DNA of 64,000 nt from Fimbriimonadaceae bacterium (GTDB lineage: Bacteria; Armatimonadota; Fimbriimonadia; Fimbriimonadales; Fimbriimonadaceae), in the NCBI GenBank assembly GCA_019454105.1, contig CP075364.1, positions 871,362 through 935,361 of the forward strand, given 5' to 3'. Each line of letters begins with the position of its first letter. The stretch's first letter is position 1. Shown one piece after another: positions 46,222 through 51,158 of this stretch. The notes beneath the pieces were generated by a model. It did no database searches, was not told the DNA's origin, and saw only the letters and a program-made list of their open reading frames with translations. Position numbers and translations under genes: made by a program.

Positions 46222-48726
46222 ATGTGGCAGCGCTTTACAGAGCGCGCGAGAAAGGTGGTCTTCTTCGCCCAAGAAGAAGCCCATAAGTTCGGTGAAGGCT
46301 ATGTCAGCACCGAACACCTCCTCTTGGGCCTGGTGCGCGAGACGGACAGCGTCGCTGCCCGTGTCCTCGAACGCCTTGGCGTCAGCCTCAACCGAGTGAG
46401 GGCCGAAGTCGAGAAGCAACTTCCAAGGGGCGAAGCCCGGCAAACACAGGACATGACGCTGACCCCTCGGGCCAAGCGCGTCATCGACCTTGCCTATGAC
46501 GAAGCTCGGAACCTAAACAACAACTACATTGGGACTGAGCACCTACTGCTCGGTTTGATACGTGAGGGTGACGGCTTGGCTGGCCGGGTCCTCGCCAAGC
46601 TGGGCGTCGAGCTCGAAAGAGCCCGTCGCGAGGTCATGTCCCTCCAGGACAACGAGACCCAGACCCGAGGCTCCACCAACCGGCCGAGTTCCAACTCCGG
46701 CTCATCGGTGAAGACCCAGACTCTCGATGAATTTGGCCGTGACTTGACCGAACTCGCCCGTGAAGGCAAGCTCGATCCTGTCGTCGGAAGACAGCAAGAG
46801 ATCGAGCGCGTCATGCAGATCCTCTCACGGCGCACGAAGAACAACCCTTGCTTGATCGGTGACCCTGGTGTCGGAAAGACCGCCATCGCCGAGGGCCTCG
46901 CCCTCAGGATCGTCAGCGGCGACATCCCAGACTTGCTGAAGAACAAAAGGCTCGTCGCCCTTGATCTCGCTGGCCTGGTGGCCGGCACGAAGTACCGCGG
47001 TGAGTTCGAAGAAAGGATGAAGAAGGTCATGGAGGAGGTCCGAAGGGCCGAAGGCCAAGTGATCCTTTTCATCGACGAACTCCACACCCTTGTCGGGGCT
47101 GGAGCGGCCGAAGGAGCGATCGACGCCAGCAACATCATGAAGCCGGCCCTCGCCCGAGGCGAGCTGCAATGCATCGGAGCCACCACCCAAGACGAGTTCC
47201 GAAAGCACATTGAGCGCGACGCCGCCTTGGAGCGCAGGTTCCAAGCTGTCAAGGTCCGAGAGCCGAACGAGGAAGAGGCTGTCGACATCCTGAAGGGGCT
47301 GCGAGAACGGTACGAAGCCCATCACGATGTTGAGATCACAGACGACGCGATCGCCTCGGCTGTGCAGCTGAGCCAAAGGTACATCACCGACAGGTCTTTG
47401 CCGGACAAAGCGATCGACTTGATCGACGAGGCAGCGAGCCGGGTGCGGTTGCACCAGTCATTGCCGCCGCTCGACGTTCGGCAAGACAAGCTCAAGTTGA
47501 ACGCCATGCGCGCCGACTTGGACCACCTCCGCCGGCACGAGCCCGACGGAGAGGCCTTCCGCAAACTTGAAACCGAAATTGAGGGGTTGGAGGACGACGT
47601 CGCCGCGCGAGAAGAGGCATGGGCCAACGAAGAGAAGCCCAAAGCGGTCGTCGGGGACGCCGAGATTGCCACGATCGTCCAAAGCTGGACCGGGATTCCC
47701 GTCTCGAAGCTCGTTGAGGCTGAGAGCCAGAAGCTTCTCAAAATGGAAGACGACCTCCACCACCGCATCATCGGTCAGTCCGACGCGGTCGGGGCCGTCT
47801 CGCGGGCCATCCGCCGCGCGAGGAGCGGCCTGAAGGATCCGAAGAGGCCCATCGCCAGCTTCATGTTCCTCGGCCCGACCGGTGTCGGGAAGACCGAACT
47901 CGCCAAGGCTCTCGCCGAGTATCTCTATGAGAAGGAGTCGAACATGGTTCGGATCGACATGTCCGAGTACATGGAACGGTTCGCTGTCTCTCGGCTCGTT
48001 GGCGCGCCTCCGGGCTATGTCGGGTACGACGAGGGCGGCCAGCTGACAGAACAAGTTCGCCGGAACCCCTACTGCGTGGTGCTCCTTGACGAGATCGAGA
48101 AGGCCCATCCGGAAGTGTTCAACATCCTCCTCCAAGTCATGGAAGACGGGCAGTTGACCGACTCCCAAGGCAGGACCGTCGACTTCAGGAACACGATCAT
48201 CATCATGACCTCGAACGTCGGGGTGCGTCCGATCGAGCTGGAAAAGGGGCTTGGCTTCCGGGACAGCAAGATGGACATCAACGACCCCAAGACCTATGAG
48301 GCGATGAAGAACAAGATGCTGGACGAAATGAAGAAGTCGTTCCGGCCCGAGTTCCTCAACCGGGTGGACGAGGTCATCGTCTTCCAGCACCTGAAGAAGG
48401 AGGAGATCCTCGAGATCGCCGACCTCTACCTGCGCCGGGTCAATCACCAGGCCGCCGAACTTGGGCTCAAGATCGAACTCAGCGAGGCGGTGAAGGATCT
48501 CTTGGTCAACAAGGGATACGACCCGAACCTTGGAGCCCGACCGCTCCGCCGTGCCGTCCAGCGGTACATCGAGGACCCGTTGAGCGAGGAACTCCTTCTC
48601 AACGTCTTCCGGTCTGGAGACGTGATCGTGGCGGACGTGGCTGAAGACGACCCCGAGAAGATCGTCTTCCACAGACAAGAACGACAAGACCCAGGGTCAG
48701 AAACCCTGGCAGTCAGCAAAAACTGA
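46222..48726 (+). CDS. clpC: ATP-dependent Clp protease ATP-binding subunit ClpC
   Basis: An 834-residue AAA+ unfoldase. The Clp N-domain has two repeats ([20 protein letters not shown], then [16 protein letters not shown]). The first ATPase has [19 protein letters not shown] and the Walker [13 protein letters not shown]. The middle region contains a short helical domain ([19 protein letters not shown] follows it), and the second ATPase has [20 protein letters not shown]. The C-terminal D2-small domain ends near [19 protein letters not shown]. The length and the short middle domain fit ClpC, not ClpB. It feeds substrates to ClpP. GGAGG precedes the ATG, and a strong terminator follows. Confidence 0.95.
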
Positions 48727-48739
48727 AGAGATCGACAGA

Positions 48740-48772
48740 GCGGGCCCCACACGAGTGGGGCCCGCTTTTTTT
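48740..48772 (+). terminator. Rho-independent terminator of clpC
   Basis: An 11-bp perfect stem (GCGGGCCCCAC / GTGGGGCCCGC) with a 4-nt loop, followed by seven T. It begins 13 bp after the clpC stop. Confidence 0.95.
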
Positions 48773-48985
48773 GTATAAACCTTCTCGTCGTCGGTAAACA
48801 CAAGGATCGACCCAGCCCCCCCACGAACTCCCTTCTTTCGATGAAATTCAATGGGCACCACGGCCGCCCCCTTTCATTTATGGGGTCAATGCAACCCAAC
48901 CGCTCGAGTCTGGCGACTTTTCCACAGTTTCAACATGACTAGACACTTTCTATCGTACTTTTTCTGTGATTTGTCCTGCAAAGTC
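48773..48985. other. AT-richer gene gap with a DnaA-box-like site
   Basis: No ORF is credible here. TTTTCCACA (48918-48926) differs by one base from the DnaA consensus TTATCCACA. Two more similar 9-mers lie at 49138-49146 and 49149-49157. The motif CTAGACA occurs at about 48939 and again in the promoter at 48986. Confidence 0.35.
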
Positions 48986-49015
48986 TAGACAAAGCGCCGG
49001 GCTTCCTGCGATAAT
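48986..49015 (+). promoter_or_regulatory. Promoter of a candidate small RNA
   Basis: TAGACA (48986-48991) and GATAAT (49010-49015) with an 18-nt spacer; TGC directly precedes the -10 (extended form). The predicted transcript start is near 49022. Confidence 0.6.
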
Positions 49016-49021
49016 ACGGGG

Positions 49022-49123
49022 CAGAAGAGCGGACAACGCTCTCAAGTAAAGAAACCGCCTGCAAAGAACGGGCGGAAGCCTGGCAACTGAGGATGCGACG
49101 CCCATAGGGCGTCGCTATTTTTT
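49022..49123 (+). ncRNA. Candidate stand-alone small RNA, family unknown
   Basis: A unit of about 102 nt bounded by a promoter and a terminator, with no start codon and no downstream gene on the same strand (the next gene is convergent). Three stems are visible: AGAGCG/CGCTCT with loop GACAA (49026-49042), CCGCC/GGCGG with an 11-nt loop (49055-49075), and the terminator stem. Between the last two lies AAGCCTGGCAACTGAGG. I do not recognise 6S, SRP, tmRNA or a known riboswitch in it. It could also be an orphan riboswitch that lost its gene. Confidence 0.55.
49095..49123 (+). terminator. Rho-independent terminator of the candidate small RNA
   Basis: GCGACGCCC / GGGCGTCGC, a 9-bp perfect stem with loop ATA, followed by TATTTTTT. 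Confidence 0.9.
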
Positions 49124-49137
49124 CATGAATGTCTTGA

Positions 49138-49157
49138 TGTGGAAAACGTGTGGACAT
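49138..49157 (-). promoter_or_regulatory. Two DnaA-box-like 9-mers in tandem
   Basis: Read on the minus strand: TTTTCCACA (49138-49146) and ATGTCCACA (49149-49157), 2 bp apart. The first is one mismatch from TTATCCACA, the second two. They may be DnaA sites or chance. Confidence 0.3.
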
Positions 49158-49182
49158 CTCTTGGTCAGTGCGGTCATGAATC

Positions 49183-49222
49183 AAAAAGGATCGCGGCCCT
49201 CCTCGTATGAGGAGGGCCGCGA
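49183..49222. terminator. Strong terminator of the secreted-protein gene at 49281
   Basis: A 14-bp perfect stem (49191-49204 with 49209-49222) and a GTAT loop. Read on the minus strand it is followed by TCCTTTTT (49190-49183), so it ends the secreted-protein transcript. On the plus strand the trailing bases are only weakly T-rich. Confidence 0.85.
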
Positions 49223-49280
49223 TTGCTTCTTGAACTAGAGTGTCCTGGGCTCCGATCGGGGCCCAGGACGAGTCATGCCC

Positions 49281-51158
49281 TTACGGGTTGACGATCCAGT
49301 TCACGAGGTCCCAATCGACCTCAGGAAGCGGGTTGGCCGAGATGCCGTTCGGGAACGTGCGGATCCGGGCTTGGAGCCGGCCGCTGCCGTTGACCTTGCC
49401 GGTCGCCGGGTTCGCGATGGACTCGCGGGTGCCGTAGACCGTGTTGAACGGGTTGGTGTTCAGCAGGTTCTCGTAGGTGCTGGTGTTCCAGTTCCATTGC
49501 TCGATCTCCTGGCGGAACTGGCCGCCGGTGACCATGCGGCTCTTGACGCGGAAGGTCACGCTGCTCGGGGTCAGGATCGAGGTCGTGCCCTGGAGGGTGC
49601 CCCAGACGAACGGCTCGACCGGGTTCGCCACGAAGAACTTCTTCAGGCGGAGGGCGACGTTGTCGTCGGCAGCCAGGTTGGCGATCGTGCCCGAGATGAT
49701 CTGGCCGCGCTGGAGCGTCAGAGCGTCAGGAGCGACGGTCTGCGGACCAGCCGTGGAGGCGAGGTTGACCGTGTAGGTCTGCATGGCGCAGTCGACAAAG
49801 TTGCCAGCCGGGGTGTTGTTGGCCGTATTGAAGATGTACGGGCCGTCCCACGTGGATCCAGCGTTCTTGTCGCGGAAGTAGATTCCCTGCTGCGTGTTGC
49901 CGGACCGCATGGTGCCGGTTTGGCCAGCTCCACCGATGCCAGGGCGCATGCCAGGGCCAACAGCGACCGTGTCGTCCTCAAGAAGACCATTGACCCGGAA
50001 GACGAGGTGGACCTCGCCGCCAGCCGGAACCGTCAGCGCCGGGCTGAAGTTCACAGTCGCGGTCTGGTACTCGCCGCTGCCGGTGCCGGTACCGAGGCCG
50101 AGCGTGATCGGCTGAGGAGCCGAGGCGCCGATCAGGGTGCCAGGAGCGCCCGATCCGTCAACAGCGCCCCAAGGAAGGGTCAGGTTGTTGACCGGGTTGC
50201 GGACTTCGACCGTGAAGGTCGGAGAGCCGCTGGTCTGGTTGAAGGTGTCGGCGTAGTACTCGACGTCGATGCTGCTGATCTTGTCGCGGCTGCCCTCGAG
50301 GGCAACGAGCACGCCGGTGGCATCATAGAGCTCGCCAGCTCCGCCAAGCGACGGAAGACCGTAGTACGCCCAGATGTCCGGAGCGTTCGGATCGACCGAA
50401 ACGTTGTCGAAGCCCTTGGCGAGGTTGCCCATATTGCCGCTCCACAGCATGAAGTTGAAGCCCCATGCGGCGACAGCGAGGGTGCCCGGTCGCTCTTGGA
50501 CAGCCCAGTCGGTCGGGCCGGAGCTCGTGTAGACACGGCGCCAGACGAGACCGTTGCCACCCGTGGCGGGCGGGGTGACCGGGAGCGTACCCGTGACCGG
50601 GGCGCCGACGAAGCGGCCGCCAGCCTTGAAGGTGTTGCCCGGATCAGCCGGATCGAACGGGACGTTCAGGAACTCGCCGCCATCGAACTGATAGGTGATC
50701 GTGATGTTCGAACCGACCGTGTCGATGTTGGGGATCGGGACGTAGACCGTGCGGTCGCCGCCGCGGACGGGGATGTCCGGGCTCGTCCACAGCAGTGTGC
50801 TCGGGCCCTGATAGGGCTGACCCGTGATGTTGCCGTTGTAGTTGGTGCCGTTGTTCCGGAAAATCCGGATGTTCAACTTCTCGTTGGTCGATCCGCCCGG
50901 GTGGAAGTCGTTGACGCAGAGGTAACCGGCGGAGATGCCCGAAAGGACAGCCGACGTGTTACCAGCGAGAACGACCTGCGAACCTCGTTCGGGGAGCTTG
51001 ACCCAGGAACCGACGCCGGGCTGGCCTTGGAAGGCGCCGGTCGCACCGGTCGGGCCGTAAGAATTGGAGTAGCTCTGCCCGGTTCGATAGACGGCGGTCT
51101 GGGCGAACGCCATCACACCAACCGAGAGGACTCCAGCGATAAGCGCAATTCGCTTCAT
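49281..51158 (-). CDS. Large secreted protein with shared C-terminal domain
   Basis: A 625-residue protein with a clean signal peptide (IALIAGVLSVGVMAFAQ). The central 450 residues are Gly/Asn/Thr-rich and beta-stranded, with no family I recognise. Residues 475-625 form the domain shared with the proteins at 44438 and 60285 (VAPDALTLQRGQIISG, then VKSRMVTGGQFRQEIEQWNW). By eye the codon use is strongly biased to a few GC-ending codons, and a very strong terminator follows, both hints of high expression. A surface or extracellular structural role is possible. Confidence 0.72.
   Translation of the reverse strand: MKRIALIAGVLSVGVMAFAQTAVYRTGQSYSNSYGPTGATGAFQGQPGVGSWVKLPERGSQVVLAGNTSAVLSGISAGYLCVNDFHPGGSTNEKLNIRIFRNNGTNYNGNITGQPYQGPSTLLWTSPDIPVRGGDRTVYVPIPNIDTVGSNITITYQFDGGEFLNVPFDPADPGNTFKAGGRFVGAPVTGTLPVTPPATGGNGLVWRRVYTSSGPTDWAVQERPGTLAVAAWGFNFMLWSGNMGNLAKGFDNVSVDPNAPDIWAYYGLPSLGGAGELYDATGVLVALEGSRDKISSIDVEYYADTFNQTSGSPTFTVEVRNPVNNLTLPWGAVDGSGAPGTLIGASAPQPITLGLGTGTGSGEYQTATVNFSPALTVPAGGEVHLVFRVNGLLEDDTVAVGPGMRPGIGGAGQTGTMRSGNTQQGIYFRDKNAGSTWDGPYIFNTANNTPAGNFVDCAMQTYTVNLASTAGPQTVAPDALTLQRGQIISGTIANLAADDNVALRLKKFFVANPVEPFVWGTLQGTTSILTPSSVTFRVKSRMVTGGQFRQEIEQWNWNTSTYENLLNTNPFNTVYGTRESIANPATGKVNGSGRLQARIRTFPNGISANPLPEVDWDLVNWIVNP

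Follow-up and report, generated by a model that had tools for sequence, protein, structure and literature searches.

A candidate stand-alone small RNA gene in the intergenic region after clpC of a Fimbriimonadaceae bacterium

Does the intergenic DNA that follows clpC in the genome of this Fimbriimonadaceae bacterium (2.74 Mb, single contig) hold a small RNA gene of its own and, if so, of what kind? A preliminary description of the window, that is, of the whole stretch of 64,000 nucleotides that was analysed, had read a short segment of this DNA as an unclassified stand-alone small RNA. This is still the best-supported reading, given a dedicated promoter and terminator and no Rfam family. In its full form, a lineage-specific stand-alone sRNA gene whose product most likely acts by Hfq-assisted pairing in trans, it is assigned a probability of about 0.5.

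The segment opens with a sigma-70-type promoter on the plus strand (48986-49015), recognised by a consensus scan and in the sequence itself. The -35 box TAGACA (48986-48991) is separated by an 18-nt spacer from an extended -10 element, TGC-GATAAT, in which the hexamer GATAAT occupies 49010-49015 and TG stands one base 5' of it. The scan gave 10 of 12 consensus matches, in agreement with the TAGACA-18-GATAAT promoter described earlier, and this was the sole promoter-like site in the 1.2-kb region 48500-49700 (mean of 0.3 in shuffles). The -10 box is directly followed by the G/C-rich ACGGGGC, and transcription probably starts at about 49021-49023, giving an RNA of ~100 nt. An imperfect inverted repeat, TGACTAGAC / GTCTAGACA, spans 48936-48991 and overlaps the -35 box; it is a possible operator and could be due to chance.

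About 550 bases separate clpC (46222-48726, plus strand; Clp_N, AAA, and ClpB_D2-small domains) from a convergent gene on the minus strand (49281-51158), whose product, a predicted secreted protein of 625 aa, matches no family of Pfam or NCBIfam. ClpC itself has its nearest matches in records from Fimbriimonadaceae. In the terminator scan, clpC is closed by a 14-bp stem with a T-run (48737-48775, plus strand; 48737-48768 up to the T-run). As this terminator precedes the promoter, the segment is no trailing part of clpC; it starts and ends at signals of its own. The convergent gene likewise ends in a terminator, with a 15-bp stem and a T-run (49183-49223, minus strand). The order along the gap is the clpC terminator, the promoter, ~100 nt, a second terminator, and then the terminator of the minus-strand gene. 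Placed between two separately terminated genes, the segment forms a separate transcription unit. The earlier placement in a gap after clpC, with the downstream gene on the opposite strand, is borne out on both sides.

Between promoter and terminator lies a predicted non-coding RNA of ~100 nt (49022-49123, plus strand, start inferred), close to the 102 nt first proposed. Folding predicts hairpin 1 at 49026-49042, with 6 bp (49026-49031/49037-49042) and the loop GACAA, and hairpin 2 at 49055-49075, with 7 bp (49055-49061/49069-49075) and the loop CAAAGAA; these correspond to the two further stems of the preliminary description. The hairpins are joined by the A-rich linker 1, CAAGTAAAGAAA (49043-49054), which is unpaired in the ensemble, and a 19-nt linker 2, AAGCCTGGCAACTGAGGAT (49076-49094), leads on to the terminator and is largely unpaired, a weak 3-bp helix aside. 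The intrinsic terminator (49095-49123) was found both by the terminator scan and as an inverted repeat, and matches the 9-bp hairpin with T-run noted before: the 9-bp stem with loop ATA, GCGACGCCC-ATA-GGGCGTCGC, covers 49095-49115, and the U-tract TATTTTTT extends to 49123. The whole RNA has a minimum free energy (MFE) of -45.1 kcal/mol (z -5.7), to which the terminator contributes much. The first 72 nt, which exclude it, fold at -24.2 kcal/mol (z -3.3), and since 8% of 72-mers of like GC content in this genome reach that stability, the inner stems, taken alone, are unusual to a mild degree only. The transcription unit as predicted is thus convincing, whereas hairpins 1 and 2 on their own are no more than suggestive.

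The unit has no usable ORF and is not a protein gene. Its only ATG (about 49093) opens the four-codon frame MRRP-stop within the terminator, in keeping with the earlier statement that no ORF is present. Neither an 81-aa ORF on the minus strand (48939-49184; searched against Pfam and NCBIfam) nor a 45-aa ORF 5' of the promoter (searched against Pfam) matched a family. Judged from this architecture, the segment is likely to be transcribed as a discrete sRNA.

Alternatively, the unit may be functionless, a chance or decaying arrangement in which an intergenic promoter feeds a nearby terminator. How often such a pair arises was estimated from a background sample of 464 kb, made up of the window and twenty 20-kb stretches from elsewhere in the host genome. 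Its 101 gaps between genes that measure 100 bases or more, 28.6 kb in all, were scanned for a promoter-like site of at least 9/12 with a strong terminator 60-250 nt after it in the same orientation, under an ORF mask limit of 120 aa. The RNA locus held the only qualifying pair. Among 20 replicates of first-order Markov-randomised gaps, one contained a pair at 9/12 or better and none at 10/12 or better. A stricter first setting (at least 10/12, with ORFs of at least 80 aa masked) returned no pair, the locus being hidden by the 81-aa ORF, and both the 120-aa limit and the looser promoter limit were set after this result had been seen. The chance rate of the arrangement is about 0.05 or less, which counts in favour of the sRNA reading, and as the locus had been picked for having such a look, this comparison shows the arrangement to be rare rather than functional. 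That randomised gaps almost never yield it, and that the gene is insulated on both sides, speaks against a chance unit.

Conservation, in contrast, leans the other way. No homologue was found when the DNA was searched against 291 genomes from the phylum or, more permissively, against 113 from the order, or with a covariance model derived from this one sequence and run over 85 genomes of the family; the first and the last of these results were counted against the sRNA reading. Collections of phage, plasmid, and viral sequences gave no match, and among the nine closest relatives inspected at this position, the DNA 3' of clpC contains no recognisable counterpart and no positional homologue. The weak matches in relatives that were inspected look like chance. 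The only DNA match with a small E-value (84% over 42 nt, near a contig edge) was taken as such because its surroundings read by eye like universal-stress-protein coding sequence. Other short DNA matches, likewise judged by eye, had no following terminator and no matching context, and the best match of the structure model aligns next to a tRNA gene and fails to preserve hairpin 2. Lack of conservation had been named beforehand as a sign against the gene, and it holds among the genomes searched, where the host is the sole member of its genus. A genus-restricted RNA would give exactly such an absence from relatives; since no second species of the genus is among these genomes, lack of conservation does not tell a young gene from one without function, nor is there a second member to show decay.

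If the RNA is transcribed, the odds that it is a base-pairing regulator are somewhat better than even. Vegetative RNA polymerase would start at about 49022 and stop at the intrinsic terminator, to give a ~100-nt product in which two single-stranded linkers connect three hairpins. Hfq could then bind at the U-tail, and perhaps also at the A-rich linker 1, CAAGTAAAGAAA being a possible distal-face (ARN-like) site. Linker 2, AAGCCTGGCAACTGAGGAT, is a candidate pairing region, and through AAGCCUGGCAACUGAGGAU it, or linker 1, would pair with one or more mRNAs and change their translation or stability. The genome encodes Hfq (PF17209, E 3e-28), and the sequence has the stand-alone unit with intrinsic terminator and U-tail that is expected of an Hfq-dependent sRNA. 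In these respects the candidate resembles Hfq-associated trans-acting sRNAs, which also have their own promoter and terminator, a length of ~100 nt, hairpins with open linkers, a U-tail, and an encoded Hfq; it differs from them in having no sequence family or known target, and its Hfq partner is putative.

Target prediction was carried out on 357 translation-start regions, drawn from about 17% of the genome. The best energies among them were no better than those of linker-shuffled controls, and when the linkers and loops only were shuffled, the best energy of 9 of 12 controls equalled or surpassed that of the RNA itself. We therefore propose no target. The start region of rsmH ranked third, at chance level. 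Also at chance level, ATCCTCAGTTGCC (genome positions 2132580-2132592) shows complementarity to linker 2 over 13 bases; it lies just 5' of the terminator in the 3' UTR of a gene that we take to be HemW-like, a name drawn from its own sequence rather than from a family search. The lack of a target signal above shuffled controls, the unexceptional inner stems, and the lack of conservation in any genome searched tell against the sRNA reading and are what a functionless unit would predict, and with rarity and insulation on the other side, that explanation is unlikely, albeit one to be taken seriously.

A functional RNA could also act on a protein, as a titrating RNA of the CsrB/RsmY kind whose GGA motifs bind and sequester CsrA. 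CsrA is encoded in the genome (E 2e-25), and the RNA shares with this class a few GGA motifs, three in number, one of which overlaps the loop of hairpin 1 while another lies in linker 2. Three is, however, roughly the expectation from base composition per 100 nt. Known CsrA sponges have many GGA hairpin loops, whereas in the candidate the motif is near a loop in just one case and is not repeated in hairpin loops. With just three motifs, a pairing sRNA fits better, and a CsrA sponge is improbable.

A divergent housekeeping RNA (6S RNA, SRP RNA, or tracrRNA) is very unlikely. At the RNA, Rfam 15 gave no family at the gathering threshold, and the whole window yielded only one tRNA; a scan at permissive E-values added chance-level matches alone, namely Hrs13 (E 0.099, opposite strand) and some matches to terminators. 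A match to a known riboswitch or to 6S RNA, which would have spoken against a new gene, was not seen in the Rfam scans, and the label "unclassified" stands. The case for 6S RNA is that the Rfam model (RF00013) detects none anywhere in the genome, in which it may be divergent or absent, and that the candidate is likewise small, stand-alone, and structured. Its sequence and fold do not fit, with three separate hairpins against the long bulged rod of 6S RNA, and it has about half the usual length. Bacterial small SRP RNA (RF00169) is similar in size, at about 100 nt, but that of the host lies at another locus (genome positions 344567-344665), and the covariance model has no match within the window. 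Cas1 was not found in the genome, which argues against a tracrRNA other than one from a Cas1-less locus. Absence from relatives is also unlike housekeeping RNAs.

On either side of the RNA gene stands a copy of TTTTCCACA, a sequence in agreement with the DnaA-box consensus, one at 48918-48926 (plus strand) and one inverted at 49138-49146 (minus strand), at a distance of 220 bases from each other; just 5 copies occur in the 464 kb of genome sampled. Because of these boxes, a replication origin at the locus was considered and rejected: the skew shows no clear and lasting switch at this point of the window, and the dnaA gene lies at 2.66 Mb. Together with the G/C-rich stretch after the -10 box, they also raise the idea of a new, genus-restricted class of RNA under replication or stringent control, which we regard as highly improbable; an ordinary lineage-specific regulatory RNA is probably the better description. 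Least probable of all is a cis-regulatory leader (riboswitch or attenuator) of a downstream gene: hairpins followed by an intrinsic terminator do resemble an attenuator, but on this strand no gene follows before guaB (51544), 2.4 kb further on and beyond the convergent gene, and the ensemble shows no prominent alternative pairing that could act as an antiterminator.

The reading that we prefer is hence that of a real-looking, insulated sRNA gene, unclassified and ordinary in kind, which is lineage-restricted among the genomes searched and known from its sequence features. A partial search of the literature returned no paper naming Fimbriimonadaceae together with small RNAs. If transcribed, the locus would be a candidate sRNA gene in this family of the Armatimonadota and, beyond that status, an ordinary kind of gene. 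With both Hfq and CsrA encoded in the genome, a regulatory RNA network is plausible in the host.
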